NCBI GenBank assembly: GCA_030144725.1
Contig: JASKMD010000029.1
Coordinates: forward strand, 5,627,538 to 5,691,537
DNA: 64,000 bases
Direction: 5' to 3'
Source: Haematococcus lacustris
Taxonomy: Eukaryota; Chlorophyta; Chlorophyceae; Chlamydomonadales; Haematococcaceae
Below the pieces are notes generated by a model that was given only the letters and a program-made list of their open reading frames with translations, made no database searches and was not told where the DNA came from. Both the position numbers and the translations under genes were made by a program. Of this stretch, positions 14,761-36,229 are shown one piece after another. Numbering within the stretch: the stretch's first letter is position 1; each line of letters opens with the position of its first letter.

Positions 14761-15195
14761 GGAGAATCGATGATCTTACCGAGTGGAGGTACATTGCACA
14801 CGGTCTCAGGGTTGCCTAGGAACGGGTGGCCAGAGGTGCCCATCCGAGAGTGTACCGGGAGTTGCAGGTAGAGCCGGAGGTCGCACACTGCATCAACAAC
14901 AGATTGATCTCTGGGTATTGATCTCTGATGGGTGGAGCCTGACTGCTGCCGCCGAGTGCTGGTGGACAGGCTGCTTGTCATGGTTAGGGTGCATCAGTGG
15001 TGCCTGACTGCTTCTGTTAAGATGACTGTGATGATTGTGTTCTTACGATGAACCAGCTGGGTTACAAAGGCTCTGGTGGGGCAGCAGTGCAGCAAAGCTA
15101 CCAAGCCCTCAAGCTATCGTTCTTGTGCTACCTTACGTCGCGGACCGCGAACTTGACGCCAGGGTGTCGAGTGGGCAGCCCATCAATCCGCGGAG
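14761..15195. other. spacer, no gene recognised
   Basis: Moderate GC, no long supported reading frame and no clear repeat. It lies between the inverted-repeat end and a decayed Fanzor-like segment and could include more of that remnant. Confidence 0.4.
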
Positions 15196-15540
15196 TTGCT
15201 AGTGTGTTGCGTCGCTAAACACCGGCAACAACAGCCGGTACGACGTGTCGGGCAAGCGGGGGCTGGCGCTGACCGCAGTGGTCCGCAACTCGTCAACCAG
15301 CACCACCTTGTAGAGCCCAACTCTCGTCACGGCCACCGATTGCCGGCCATGGCCACAGGGCGTCCAGGTGCCTGCTGAACCATCGCAAACTGTGCGACGC
15401 TGGCCCGCGCGACGCTGGCATGTTTGGGCTGACATGGCGTGGAGGCAAGCGCACCAATGCAGGATCTTCCCGATGCAGGTTCCACTCTGCTACGGGTCCA
15501 GCCTGCAAGGCGCATTGTAGTCTTGGTGGCCATCAAGCCC
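15196..15540 (-). pseudogene. decayed Fanzor-like fragment
   Basis: Minus-strand frames contain APGRPVAMAGN and, shifted, YKVVLVDELRTTAVSA. They align in order with TGRPLALAYGAA and GRVVLVHEFRTSRVSSA of the RuvC-II exon of the Fanzor gene at 22521-25217, including the Glu-x-Arg-Thr core. The intervening glycine-rich stretch is deleted and stops interrupt the reading. No RuvC-I or RuvC-III motif was found nearby. A short, diverged match, so chance similarity cannot be excluded. Confidence 0.45.
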
Positions 15541-18219: not shown

Positions 18220-21200
18220 GTGTGGAGGGGGCAGCAGGGAAACTGCAGAGGCCAAACGTGGCCCAGCCAGGCCTGGTGCAAGGCTGCCTGTCCTGGATGT
18301 CCCTGGATGTCCCTGGTGGAGGCCCTGCCCTCCCACCCCTGATGTGCGGCTCATGAAGGCTGAGCTGGTGTTGCAGCCGCCCAGCCATCCCCTTCGCCAC
18401 CTCTAGGCTAGCCCCCCTGCAGCCCCCCCTTCCCTACCTGCCTGCCTGCCCACCCTGACCTGCAGTCCCCACTGTGCCTCCCCTCCCTCCCTCCCCCCTC
18501 CTGCCTGCCTGCCTGGCCCCCTGACCCGCAGTCCATCAAGGTCCCGGTGTTTGAGATGGGCACTGACAGCAAGCCAGTGGACATTGCCCGGGCTGGGCTG
18601 ACAGAGGCACGCCGCCTGAAAGTGGACGCTGTGATTGTCGACACGGCGGGGCGCCTGCAGGTGCGGTGGCCACAGCCTGCTGGGGGGGGTGGGGCAGGGG
18701 CAGGGGCAGGGGCAGGAGGAGCGGCAGGGGCAGGGGCAGGGGCAGGGGCAGGGGCAGGGGCAGGGGCCAGCCTGCACAGCGCCTGGGGAGTGTGACACAG
18801 ATAGTGTGTGGGGCGTGGCCTGCCCACCTAGCTGCTGCTGTGCTGTCCTCTGGCACACTGATGATGAGCGACCTTGTGGGGCAGGGCCTGCCCGCCTGGC
18901 CCTGCACACCGCCCTGCTGCCTGGGCGCACCTGACCTGGATACAGATTGACGAGGACATGATGGCTGAGCTGCGGGACATCAAGGCCGCGGTGAAGCCAA
19001 CTGACACGCTGCTGGTGGTGGATGCCATGACTGGCCAGGAGGCCGCAAACCTTGTCAAGGCATTCAACGACGAGGTGAGACCGGCCAGGCGAGGGTGAGG
19101 GGCCCACCCCCTGCCAGGCTGTCATATCCTATCCTAACATCCCTGCTGCTGCACGTGACCTCCTTTGCACACCCTTGCCGTCTTCCTCCTCCTGCCCCAC
19201 CTCCTCTACTCGAGGGGCTTGTCCTGTGCTGGGCAGCCTCCCTGGGTGACCTCCCTGCTGACCCCCCTTGGCCCATTACCCAGCATTGCCTCCCCCCCCC
19301 GCACCATGGCTGGGCCATGGCGCCCTCACAAAGTCTCATTCACGCATGGGCTCTTCTCCCCATATCCTCTATACTGCATGCTCTAGGCAATCCGGGCCTC
19401 TCGTCCTCCCTCCTCTCCCCTGCCCTGCCCCCAGCCCCCCCCCTGCCTGTCCCATCCCTGACTGCCTGGGTGCCTGTGACTGCTCAGGTGGACATCAGCG
19501 GGGCGGTGCTCACAAAGATGGACGGCGACTCACGGGGCGGGGCAGCGCTCAGTGTGCGCGAGGTGGGTGGCAGGGCGCAGAAGGCCCAGGGCGTCACAGG
19601 GTGTCAGCAGCCAGGAGGGCGGGGCGGCTCGCAGCTGCCTGCTCCCATCCTGGGTGTCTCCCTGGTCACCTAGTCAACCTTTTACCCCGCCGCCCCCTTC
19701 ACTCCCTCAGACCTACACCTTCGCCTGGTTACCACTCACACCTACCCTCACCTAACCCTTATCCGCCCTTCACCTAGTCACCCCTTCACCCCCTTCTTCA
19801 CCCCCTCAAACCTCACACCTTGACATTTTCACGCTTGCTGTTTTGATTCTCATCACAGCTGAAGGATAACAGCTTAGCTCTCTCCCATTCTGCTCCCTGC
19901 AGCTGTGCTTTAAGAATGCAGCTCGATTCATCACCCCACATCCTCACCAGCACAGCACAGCCTGTGGCCTGCACCTAACCCTGGTCATCCCTACCCCACC
20001 TGCCCCCTGCCCCACCTGCCCCCTGCCCCACCTGCCCCCTACCCCACCTGCCCCCTGCCTTGCCTCCCCCCTGCCCTGCCTCCCCCCTGCCCTGCCTGCC
20101 CCCTGCCCTGCCCACCTGCCTGCCACCAAGCTGGCCTGCCCCTGGCCCCCTGGCGCCCTGGGCTCAGGTGTCCAGCAAGCCCATCAAGTTCGTGGGTGTG
20201 GGGGAGGTGCTGGAGGCGCTGGAGCCCTTCTACCCGGAGCGCATGGCCAGCCGCATCTTGGGCATGGGAGACATGCTGACCCTGTACGAGAAGGCCTCCA
20301 CAGCCATCCAGGTCAGGGGGGGAAGGTGAGGGGAGGGGGGTCAGGGGTCAGGGGGTGGGGGCCAGGCAGGGCAGGGGGCAGGCAGGGAGTGGGGTGCAGG
20401 TAGTAGGGGACAGGGGACAGGGTTTAACATGAAGGTGGAGAAGGGCGTGGCCATGATCAGGGGGAGGGGTCCACAGGACCTACCGCACAACATATTGCCA
20501 TAGCTAGGACCTGGTGTGTGGGGGGGGCTGCATGCAACAGCATTGAGGTGGACTGATCAGTGCTGCCGCTGCTGCTGCTGCTGCTGTGTTGGGTTGGATA
20601 GGCTGACGAAGCTGCTGCCTTGGCTCAGCGCCTGAAAGAGAGCAAGTTCGACTTCAACGACTTCTTGAAGCAATACGAGACGATGAACAACATGGGCGGC
20701 ATGAAGTTGATGAAGATGATGCCAGGGTTCAACAAGGTGCGTATGTGTGCAACAGGGGGCCTGACACAGGTGAAAAGGACATGTGCAACATGTGCAACAG
20801 AGCAGCCCGGGCCTGCTTTATGCCGCACTAGACTGCAGTCGGCAAGCTTCAAGATTGGACATGCTGCTTTTTCTTTGCTCTGTTGGCGCAGATTTCTGAA
20901 AAGCAGTTGTATGAGGTCGAAAAGCAGTTTGCTATCTACAAGAAAATGATCGACGTCATGGACGAGGACGAGAAGGCAGATCCGCGGCTCCTGGCGGCAT
21001 CACCTAGCAAGAGGCGTCGCGTAGCGCAGGCCAGCGGTCGCAGCGAAGCCGAGGTGTCGGAGCTGCTTGGAAAGTTCACACAGATGCAAGCGCAAGCAAT
21101 CAACATGGGCCGCATGATGCAGCTGGGGTCTCCTGAAGGTGAGGAGTGAGGTCACACTGGCTGTATCCGGCCTGGCAGAGCTGGTCAGAGCCGCACGGGG

Positions 21201-21995: not shown

Positions 21996-22520
21996 TGCGA
22001 GAATCACACCGCCCGAACCGTCAGCCGTCAGCTTACACCGCCCAAGCCTTCAGCTCCTTGGCCCCCCTCTACCTTCACACCTCGAGAATATGCGCATAGT
22101 GCCTCCGTAGCCCTATCGTTGTTGTAGACAGGGCAGCAGCTGTGCCGTAGTGGTACGCAAAACATACAACAGTGCTGCAATGTGCGGTCACTCAGCAACC
22201 TTGGCATGAAATGGCATACAGAGGCGGCTTTGCTCATTATCGTGCCAATGCACGTTCCTACGCGGATTTATAATGGGCGACGACTCTGCTGTGAGACCCA
22301 GCCTCGGACACTTTCAACCAAACAACCTTCAGGCCGTCCTGTGGAGCCCCTACACTTCTCCACAGGAGTCAGGGACCGGTGTGTGTCCCTAACCTAGGTC
22401 CCTAACCCTAGGAGTCGATAGAGCCCTACCCTACCCTATGCACACTCTATCGCACACACATCCCCTTTGTTAGGGGCAATCGAATTGTTTGTTTGTTTGG
22501 CTCATGGCATGATGCACATG
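21996..22520 (-). ncRNA. structured 3' flank of Fanzor gene, candidate guide-RNA region
   Basis: The 525 bp between the cpSRP54 and Fanzor stop codons has no coding signal but several hairpins. One has a 10-bp stem, TCCTGTGGAG at 22337-22346 with CTCCACAGGA at 22358-22367. Another pairs GGGAC (22372-22376) with GTCCC (22385-22389). A third pairs CCCCT (22462-22466) with AGGGG (22472-22476). In TnpB and Fanzor systems the guide RNA comes from the transposon end just 3' of the nuclease gene, which is this position. It may also simply hold the two 3' UTRs. No experiment or homologous RNA is known to me. Confidence 0.3.
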
Positions 22521-25217
22521 TCACTGTCGCTGCCGCTGGTGCCGCCGCTGCCACTTCCGCAACAGGCCTCTGTCGCGCACGCACACCCACTCCTGGCCTG
22601 GTCTGCCTGGATTAGGCATAGCTGGGCGGCCCACCCAGCTGCTGAGCTCGCGGGGGCGGCCCGGCCCGGCTGCAATGCGGCGGATGTTCAGCGCGGCTGA
22701 CACGTCCCGATCGTAGAACCTGATGCCGTTGCTTGTTGAGCACATCAGGCCCCGGATGCGGGACCGCGTCGCCATGCTGCGCACCGGGCGCAGCCACCTG
22801 CAAGGCGACATACATGTCAATGCACATTTGTAAGATTGCCAAACCAAGTGTTAAGTCAAGCCATGTTGAGTCTAAACGGTGCTGGGCACAGTCAGGGGTT
22901 GGTGTGTGAGGCTATTTCACAGCTGTGTGAGGTGCCATTCTACAGCTATGTAATGAGTCCACTCCTACAATGCACATGCACCTGAGGTCTCTTACCTGAA
23001 AGACTCTGGCTGGCCTGCCACCACGTCGGTGCGGGCAGAGCTGACCCGGCTGGTGCGGAACTCATGCACCAGCACCACACGCCCTGGGAACTGCTTGCAT
23101 GCCTCCCTGAGCATGTGCTTGACGGGCACACCCCTGCTGCCCCTGCTGCCGCTGCCGCTGAAGCCTGCTGCCCCATAGGCCAGGGCCAGGGGGCGACCTG
23201 TGGCAGCCGAGTTGCAGCGTACCCTGGCACCCCTCACAGTCTGCAGCCAAGGCACACAAGGAGAGACACATTGTGAGCTCAGGTCCAGCCATGGCAAAGA
23301 CAAGCATTGTGAGCACACACACTAGCACACACACTGGCTGGGTACGGCCTACTCACATCAGCCCAGAACTTGGCCACCGTGCTCTGCTTGTATCGGTACA
23401 GCCGGAATCTGGCGTTGGACCAGCGCGGCTTGGACAGCTCGGCCCACATGGCGGGCCAGGTCACCAGCGTCATGGCGACGTACTCCCGGTACCGCTGCAG
23501 CGAGGCGGTGTAGTTGGTGACTTGCGACAGCACAGCGTGCTCGGGCTGGATGCCGGCCATCCAGGCCTTGGACACCTTGGCGTGCTGCGTGATGCCGCTC
23601 TGCCGGTAGTAGTGCCCCGCAGTGAGGCTGCGCTGCCACACGGACTCCACAGCGCCCGAGGGGTACCGCTCCTCGTGGGCCACTGTCGCCATGTTGGTTT
23701 TGCCTGGATCGCAGCCCAGCCAGTCCGCGTCCAGGTGCGCCAGCGGGTTGACAGCGCCCTCCTGCTTGCCCATGCTTGGCAGCTCGTCGGGCGGCCCTGC
23801 TGGCTTGGGGCGCGTGAACAGCAAGCTGACCGTGACTCCGTCCGTGTGAACCACCTGCGCGAAGGTCTGCCCGTCGTTTGGCCAGATGGATGGCTGGATG
23901 GCTGGCGGGAGGCTGGATGGAAGGAAGGCGATCCACCGGTTGGCCACCTGCAACCCAACACAGCCGACACAGCCGACTCAACACACTTGGACCAGCAATA
24001 TGCCTCAAGCACCATTACACCAGCAATATGCCACAGGCAACATGCCACCAGCAACATGCCTCAAGCACCATGCCACCAGCAATATGCCACAGGCAACATG
24101 CCAGGCTGGCCAGCTCAAGGCTCACTCACCTCACTGTCCCTGGGCCCGGCCACACCATTCCTGAACCTGGTCAAGGAGGTGATGTACGCTGGCAGCATGC
24201 CAGCGGCCCGCATCAGGCCATAGATGGCCCGGGTGTCCAGCTTGATGTGGTGCGCCTTGCAGCTGCAGCCGGGTGTGATGGCAAAGGGGGATGGGGGGGC
24301 GGTAGGGCCTGGAGTTTGGCTGCCCCCCAATTGCCTGCCAGTCTGCCCAGTCAGCCTGCCAGCTGACGTGGGCAGCCTCCAGCTGCCTGCTGGTGTCCAC
24401 TGCATGACGCAGCAGGCTGCCCCGGTTGACCCCCCTCTGCCGCCAGGCTTTGTTCACCACCACCCCCTGACCCACCCCCAACAACCTCCGCTGCCTGGCC
24501 ACCTCATCCCGCATGGCCTCAGTAGGCACCACCCCACCCTGACCCTGACCCTGACCCTCTAGCCAGGTCACCACCTTCCCCCGCACACTCCGCACCACCC
24601 AGCTGCGCTGACGCTCAGTCCAGGCTGGACTGCCATCCACGGGCAGCCCAAAGCGGCGCTGGTGCTCGTGTGAGCCAGCGATGACCCTGGCTCCAGCCAG
24701 AGCCACCGCTTGCCCAACTCTGCGCTTGAACAGCTCGTTGAGGCTGTTGGCAAAGCTAGTCTCCAGCTTCTGGCCCACATCGTCGACGGTGTTGGAGTCG
24801 TGCGGATAGCGAGGTATTGCGTCGAGCTCGTCGCTGAGGGTCGGGTACGCGGCCAGCACAGCCACCACAGCAGCGCTGGGCCGAGACTGCAATCCGGGAG
24901 GGAGGCATACCGCGGCCGAGCTGCAGGTACAGGTTGCGCTCCGCAAAGTCCGGGATGACCGCGTCCTCAGCAGGGATTTCCTCTAAGAGCTCGACAGGCC
25001 ATCCGCAAGTACAGTGACGCGTGTGAAGGAGTCGCGCACCATGAGGCCCAACAGCAAGCTGGCGAGCAGCGCCCTCTTGCTGCAGGCCTCCACCCAAAGC
25101 ACACGTTGGTCGTGAGAGCCGCGCCTCCACCACTTCGGAAGGCACGACCGCGCCCGCCTCTAACCCCGCAGCGGCCACACCCCTCATCAAGGTTGCGTTT
25201 ACCTTTTTGCGTGCCAT
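22521..25217 (-). CDS. Fanzor (eukaryotic TnpB-like RNA-guided nuclease), N-terminal half frame-broken
   Basis: Predicted RNA-guided DNA endonuclease of the TnpB/Cas12-related Fanzor family. Clean 3' exons are 23357-23947, 22996-23240 and 22521-22797, with GT-AG borders and fitting phases. RuvC-I: GCDPGKTN, Asp codon 23708-23710. RuvC-II: VVLVHEFRTS, Glu codon 23061-23063. RuvC-III: RFYDRDVSAALNI, Asp codon 22704-22706. So the whole catalytic triad is present. The zinc-ribbon CxxC pairs usual in TnpB are missing, leaving only LMCSTS. The 5' part (24130-25217) shows family-like pieces in different frames: MARKK at the start, ACSKRALLASLLLGLMVRDS, IPAEDAVIPDFAERNLYL, LAAYPTLSDELDAIPRYP and HHIKLDTRAIYGLM. 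The last step crosses a G7 run (24294-24300). Either assembly indels or early decay. Tail-to-tail with cpSRP54, head-to-head with the transportin gene. Confidence 0.8.
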
Positions 25218-25590
25218 GTGTTATTGTGGTTGTGGGCCCAGTGCGCTGCACCGTTGGCCTGCATGTTCCGCTGGCCTGACTTGGTTCTGGCGGCTGTCAA
25301 CCTAACTGTCCGAGGCATTACGATTACGTCTACGCTGTCTGTTTCGCTGCATTTTCCTAACTCGCTTCGCTAACTGTGGCGCTAATTGGCCATTGTGTCC
25401 TGGTTTTTCTGCTTTTTTCCTGGTTTTCCTGTTATTTTCCTGGTTTTCCTGGTTTTCCATACAGCGGCTTGCATTCTGCTGGCTATCCTTCCGTTCGCCT
25501 CGTCCGGTCACTGCGGGTTGTCGATAAGTACATTCATTTGTATTTTGCGTTAGGAAGTTCGACCGGGTGGGTCTAGCGCTCAGTGCCGCC
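25218..25590. promoter_or_regulatory. intergenic region between divergent Fanzor and transportin genes
   Basis: 373 bp with an AT-richer, T-rich stretch (25395-25465, repeated CTGGTTTTCCTG words), the only such stretch for several kb. It probably holds the transportin promoter; any Fanzor promoter would also have to be here. No TATA box I would defend. Confidence 0.35.

Positions 25591-36229
<10,639 letters not shown>

Follow-up and report, generated by a model that had tools for sequence, protein, structure and literature searches.

Among the described eukaryotic RNA-guided nucleases, those closest to the gene analysed here are the Fanzor1 proteins SpuFz1, PpFz1 and GtFz1 (PMC10432273, PMC11423790). 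In the accessible parts of the literature, a Fanzor is marked by a RuvC D-E-D triad with DPG, the Glu being an alternative one placed six residues ahead of the ribbon (PMC10711439); the Fanzor1 pattern is given as D-X(125,275)-[TS][TS]XX-C4-X(5,50)-RD, the C4 finger being described as strictly conserved among Fanzor and TnpB proteins (PMC3627910), and a further account places the zinc finger in "many" Fanzors, which is not to say in all of them (PMC10711439). The zinc finger of SpuFz1 is part of its NUC (TNB) domain, and the TAMs that stand before the target are CATA for SpuFz1 and TTAAN for GtFz1 (PMC10432273). Green-algal Fanzor elements are already in print: CRe-1, CRe-2 and CRe-3 of Chlamydomonas reinhardtii (Bao and Jurka 2013, PMC3627910) are multicopy, intron-containing Fanzor1 elements with a fixed 3' end, variable 5' ends and variable short direct repeats, and an abundant Fanzor-encoding repeat of Auxenochlorella is described as a most-abundant repeat (PMC12633428). 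In the open-licence literature on Fanzor and Haematococcus, we found the Auxenochlorella paper only (PMC12633428), in whose available text Haematococcus figures in connection with ploidy and in a reference; within the accessible portions of the same literature, no description of a Fanzor family without a zinc ribbon was found.

The locus presented here lies in a 64,000-nucleotide stretch of Haematococcus lacustris contig JASKMD010000029.1 (hereafter the window), from an assembly of 308 Mb in 597 contigs. Because H. lacustris is reported to be diploid, with an assembly of 151 Mb (PMC7617258), the larger assembly may contain both haplotypes and the copy counts given below may be doubled. We consider it probable that the locus, which occupies 22330–25447 on the minus strand as judged from the edges of BLAST alignments with other genomic copies, is a degenerated copy of an H. 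lacustris mobile element of about 3.1 kb that carries a Fanzor1-type nuclease gene and would act as proposed below. It is like the Auxenochlorella repeat, whose available description is silent on a zinc ribbon, in being a high-copy Fanzor element of a green alga, and it sits between two plus-strand genes at 19979–21146 and 25528–25848, respectively, an SRP54-type gene (PF00448, PF02978) and one with an importin-beta N-terminal domain (PF03810).

The gene is read from the minus strand. Three 3' exons, E2 (23357–23947; RuvC-I), E3 (22996–23240; RuvC-II and the first half of a degenerate ribbon) and E4 (22521–22797; the second half of the ribbon, RuvC-III and the stop codon at 22523–22521), had been joined in phase by the first-pass annotation, and the window sequence bears this out: they share one frame through GT-AG introns, and the spliced C-terminal half comprises 422 amino acids with no stops and contains all three motifs that had been picked out, GCDPGKTN, HEFRTS and YDRDVSAALNI. 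The exon upstream of E2 ends at 24130, in the frame of E2–E4, and is parted from E2 by intron 1 (23948–24129, likewise GT-AG), within which a 14-bp tandem repeat (ACCAGCAATATGCC-like) spans 23991–24102. The earlier gene end of 25217 should probably be moved: going by the sister model P0004, the gene is likely to start at 25264, giving an N-terminal coding exon of 24130–25264. A deposited model, P0003 (588 amino acids), was found by protein search to be 100% identical to the C-terminal half; much of the N-terminal half is left out of it.

The N-terminal half does read in several frames, as had been remarked, and the cause proves to be lesions. When matched to residues 1–330 of P0004, the window copy has five stops, and several small indels, located between about 24.29 and 25.20 kb, disrupt its frame. 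Of twenty element loci fetched, one is the window copy; the N-terminal half is a single stop-free frame in 8 of the remaining 19, for which reason exon structure was rejected as the source of the mixed frames. Relative to 13 alignable sisters, one 4-nt loss and three single-base length changes in the same interval are private to the window copy; further differences in this half are common to one to four sisters. A stretch of 16 nt present in all 18 other aligned tails is missing from the 3' terminus, and E2–E4 are undamaged. Judged from its sequence as assembled, this copy can no longer make the full protein, so that what had been taken for an intact nuclease gene is a broken copy of the element. 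The frame breaks could instead be assembly errors, in which case the gene would be intact and possibly active. Several of them are indeed single-base length differences, the type of error typical of long-read assemblies, and the undamaged E2–E4 would be in keeping with this; nevertheless, we think it unlikely, as the 4-nt loss is absent from all 13 sisters and the 16-nt loss from the 18 other tails, neither being of the homopolymer type and both less easily ascribed to assembly error than the single-base changes, and as the 588-residue P0003 also omits much of the N-terminal half.

The family to which this gene belongs is homologous to Fanzor1, and its D-E-D triad, which is of the Fanzor type, is intact. 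In the window, the catalytic Asp codon of GCDPGKTN (23708–23710), the alternative Glu codon of HEFRTS (23061–23063) and the last catalytic Asp codon of YDRDVSAALNI (22704–22706) can be read directly from the minus strand. In an alignment of 22 Haematococcus family members, the alternative Glu is found in all 22 rows, DPG in 21 (P0021 has DLG) and RD in 21 (P0111 has RG); by eye, all three residues are present in 21 of the 22 rows, one row having RG for RD. The combination of DPG with an alternative Glu before the ribbon is therefore present in the family, and the earlier assignment of the triad is upheld, down to the Fanzor-specific position of the Glu in EFRTS. The earliest profile link was made via viral Fanzor1: profile–profile comparison of the 22-member alignment with ten viral Fanzor1 sequences extended over 316 columns with a probability of 96.3, and a viral relative matches SpuFz1, PpFz1 and GtFz1; a second viral scan gave the same viral locus alone. 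The proteins of this viral contig (L009, P0121–P0240) share the EFRTS, HIRLDT and TDG motifs and the RuvC layout with those of Haematococcus. Foldseek and VIA searches with a predicted model of a sister protein returned Fanzor1 chains in all of the top seven rows, and the model displays the bilobed REC-WED-RuvC-TNB arrangement, with a predicted likeness to SpuFz1, PpFz1 and GtFz1 over residues about 50–728; it has a mean pLDDT of 55.8, falling below 50 over 578–773, a stretch that takes in much of RuvC and TNB, and 8 of the 53 rows in its input alignment were viral Fanzor1.

Sequence profiles had been suggested as a check, and here the outcome was divided: PF07282 (TNB) is matched, but weakly, and below its cut-off wherever bit scores are shown. 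The match was seen in 10 of the 22 members (best E 5e-4), at the ribbon where its place is shown, with 16.7, 14.5 and 15.5 bits for P0004, P0010 and P0003, respectively, against a cut-off of 26.3, a level that the family does not reach; P0066 and P0062 gave no PF07282 match at E 1, and a whole-genome search with introns unspliced gave a single match of 18.9 bits, also below the cut-off. Pfam and PDB sequence searches with pieces of the gene and with the family alignment yielded nothing usable (three unrelated chains, E 0.49–1.8), and phmmer gave no matches to the known Fanzor1 proteins with solved structures. The spacing and the [TS][TS] of the Fanzor1 pattern fit (D458 to T638 in P0004), whereas the C4 part does not. 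As the family thus fails the strict C4-finger definition, we call it Fanzor1-like, a variant without the zinc ribbon, and take it to work as Fanzor1 does.

The absence of the zinc-ribbon cysteines, as first reported, holds for three of the four: in the window gene, the first CxxC place reads Ser-Ser-Ala-Arg (23031–23042) and the second Cys-Ser-Thr-Ser (22731–22742), by sequence and family alignment, such that Ser and Arg stand in the first pair and Ser at the fourth position, and one Cys is kept, in RGLMC. This lone cysteine survives in 15 of 15 translated copies of the window family, and TSRVSSA, which puts Ser-Ser-Ala at the first CxxC place, is invariant across the 22 aligned rows. An EFRTS-type motif was found in 145 of 192 Haematococcus proteins, 47 being without it; none of the 145 has C..C at the first zinc pair, and 142 have Ser at the first position of the lost CxxC. 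By comparison, the motif occurs in 119 of 120 viral proteins, and all 119 keep C..C. The first zinc pair is therefore lost in every motif-bearing family member examined, and the suggestion that the loss might mark a distinct algal subgroup is borne out for a whole lineage in H. lacustris. Divergent proteins of this species (26–34% identity) show the same loss wherever the stretch is present, with TSRVSS or TTRVSL at the CxxC place in P0285, P0297 and P0301, and P0300 being without the stretch. No zinc-bearing relatives were found in the same genome, either by the unspliced PF07282 search or among P0285, P0297 and P0301. Some of these four proteins have long Ala/Pro/Lys-rich insertions at the would-be second zinc pair.

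In lacking the C4 ribbon, with one Cys left in the window family, these proteins differ from SpuFz1, PpFz1 and GtFz1, as far as the accessible descriptions go. If a large family is kept under selection without this ribbon, the TNB domain would seem able to function zinc-free; such a lineage would be missed by screens of the kind used in at least one mining effort, in which CxxC...CxxC was required in the search pattern (PMC10711439). The degenerate finger might, on the other hand, mean that the family no longer cuts DNA and has been repurposed as an RNA-guided binder or for some other non-nuclease role. This draws support from the placement of the finger in the NUC (TNB) domain of SpuFz1 (PMC10432273); we consider it improbable, given that the D-E-D triad is retained (complete in 21 of 22 rows) and that E2–E4 are under purifying selection.

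This selection is apparent from both the frame and the substitutions. E2 (591 nt) is free of indels in the best match of each of 20 copies, and the 187 pairs from its 20 copies that have a dS over 0.02 give a median dN/dS of 0.34; for E3 and E4 together, 104 pairs from 15 copies give 0.28. The copies were chosen as the best E2 matches, which favours well-kept ones, and these values therefore describe the well-kept part of the family. The search for sister copies that had been proposed was rewarding: the genome holds at least 151 exon matches (150 of 3629 candidates having been scored), and the last 22 bases of the element occur 262 times with at most one mismatch, compared with none for a reversed-pattern control. 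By protein search, the 120 best-listed of 253 matches are all from H. lacustris, and in a second search with a long query (candidates of about 859–2733 amino acids), 106 of 106 matches were named H. lacustris. The existence of the gene model P0003 could be taken to mean that this is a single gene domesticated by the host between its SRP54-type and importin-beta-type neighbours; the hundreds of 3' ends, the sharp element edges and the broken frame make this very hard to credit. A number of H. lacustris gene models are fusions of a Fanzor-like stretch with a Pfam domain foreign to it, PF00069 (kinase) and PF00504 (chlorophyll-binding) being examples; these are probably annotations of intronic or adjacent copies of the element.

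The alignments to other copies stop sharply on the 3' side, where the window copy ends in ...CGGCCTG at 22330; the 5' edge falls at 25433–25460 in 13 of the 19 other loci. The 3' terminus is constant across copies (...GTGGAGAAGTGTAGGGGCTCCAC...GGATACAGGACGGCCTG), the 5' ends differ, and 9 of 20 further loci (L031–L050) align as two separated pieces, indicative of internal deletions. The last 200 nt have a mean identity of 95% over 19 tails. From the tail alignment, folding and covariation, the 3' terminal region (22330–22520, minus strand) appears structured and is a candidate omega-RNA scaffold, comparable with the structured 3' region of the characterized Fanzor1 systems. Three copies fold better than shuffled sequences (z −2.6, −3.6 and −3.1), the window copy not clearly so (z −1.35). 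Covariation in the tail is weak: two of the 40 pairs change on both sides, a number reached by 76 of 500 shuffles, although no more than 4 of the 500 attain the covariation score; most of the base pairs are invariant and therefore say little. In the terminal CAGG-NNNN-CCTG hairpin, the loop bases vary and the stem is mostly kept. Rfam gave no matches in L020 and L010, the window copy contains no inverted repeats of 16 nt or more, and no second gene was recognised in the element.

Short direct repeats that follow CTG occur in excess around these insertions. At least 8 nt of the 3' flank was sought 1–5 kb upstream for 21 3' ends from 19 of the 20 loci: a repeat was present for 10 ends, in 8 of which it stands after CTG, compared with means, for flanks taken at 44 other offsets, of 2.14 ends for any repeat (maximum 7) and 0.14 for a repeat after CTG (maximum 1). 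The sole repeat of L010 and of L021, and a second repeat of L025, are without a preceding CTG, and 11 of the 21 ends, the window copy included, gave no flank repeat. Among the 20 further loci, where under 900 nt upstream was covered, the repeats of L050 (13 nt) and L037 (7 nt) follow CTG, in contrast to those of L041 (8 nt, twice) and L039 (7 nt); among chosen copies, those of L048 (a duplicate of L026), L040/L045 (10 nt) and L088 (11 of 13) follow CTG and that of L034 does not, L031, L036 and L082 have no convincing repeat, and L125 has none in 551 nt. As the 3' end of the element is itself ...CCTG, the putative guide is preceded by CTG at each of the two ends. This is the position occupied by Fanzor TAMs, the sequence differing from the CATA of SpuFz1 and the TTAAN of GtFz1; equally, CTG could be part of the duplicated target.

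The CRe elements differ, by description, in having Helitron2 ends and TTTT targets and in belonging to a set with a strictly conserved C4 finger (PMC3627910); none of the repeats listed for Haematococcus follows TTTT, or otherwise points to insertion after a T-rich tetranucleotide. A rolling-circle-type recognition end has been proposed for the Helitron2-linked CRe elements (PMC3627910), and the structured 3' end of the Haematococcus element may likewise serve only to be recognised by a transposase, of the rolling-circle or another type, with no omega RNA involved. The constant 3' end, variable 5' ends, internal deletions and short direct repeats resemble those of CRe-1 to CRe-3, as far as these are described in the accessible text (PMC3627910), and we hold this to be a serious possibility, if the less likely one, as most of the repeats found follow CTG and not TTTT. 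Moreover, the two roles can coexist, since the guide RNAs of TnpB overlap the transposon right end.

Grounded in the protein class, the triad, the selection, the conserved 3' end and the excess of repeats after CTG, all of which are observed, the mechanism that we propose as the most likely one for the Fanzor-carrying element is as follows. An intact copy would be transcribed through its own 3' end, the folded tail serving as the omega-RNA scaffold and the host flank immediately after ...CCTG as the guide. The protein would bind this 3' RNA and find CTG followed by matching DNA, with CTG acting like a TAM, and RuvC would cut the matched DNA, so that the element would more readily be copied into matching sites that are still empty. 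The remodelled TNB region would function without zinc, and mobilisation probably needs machinery in trans. A bolder version, to which we give little weight, is that in this Fanzor lineage, free of zinc, the element's own guide RNA sets the landing site, and that the element spreads through RNA-guided cleavage of empty sites that match, with little or no dedicated transposase; it would see the insertions as lying after CTG plus 8–14 nt recurring right after the ...CCTG of the element, a recurrence that would make the flank the guide and CTG the TAM. The hundreds of insertions, with their CTG preference, form a natural archive of the sites that a eukaryotic RNA-guided nuclease element enters.

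Two further kinds of trace were considered and rejected. Shared 3' flanks of 12–13 nt at unrelated loci were taken as possible products of guide-directed insertion: among 11,730 pairs, agreement at 11 or more of 12 nt was seen in 9 (0, 0, 1, 0, 0 and 0 at six control offsets) and at 10 or more in 12 (4, 1, 1, 1, 0 and 1 at these offsets). Such pairs are mostly duplicates or homologous contexts; L026 and L048, for example, share about 1.9 kb of 5' flank. Repair scars 12–15 nt past the 3' end were considered as signs of self-cutting and initially seemed clustered; of some 17 indels in flanks extending to 98 nt, about 3 lie at nt 10–15, where about one is expected. The flanks of L036 with L125, L126 and L127, of L031/L050 and of L144/L155 agree at 10–12 of their initial 12 nt, beyond which they differ; no common context was found for these three sets, and a genome search allowing up to 3 mismatches found the L036 join nowhere else. 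Finally, the window contains a second Fanzor-like fragment on the minus strand at 15181–15342 (VVLVDELRTTAVSAS...LRGLM), which has one stop and no C..C at the first zinc pair and which, although much decayed, still has 45% identity to residues 661–722 of P0066 (E 2e-5).
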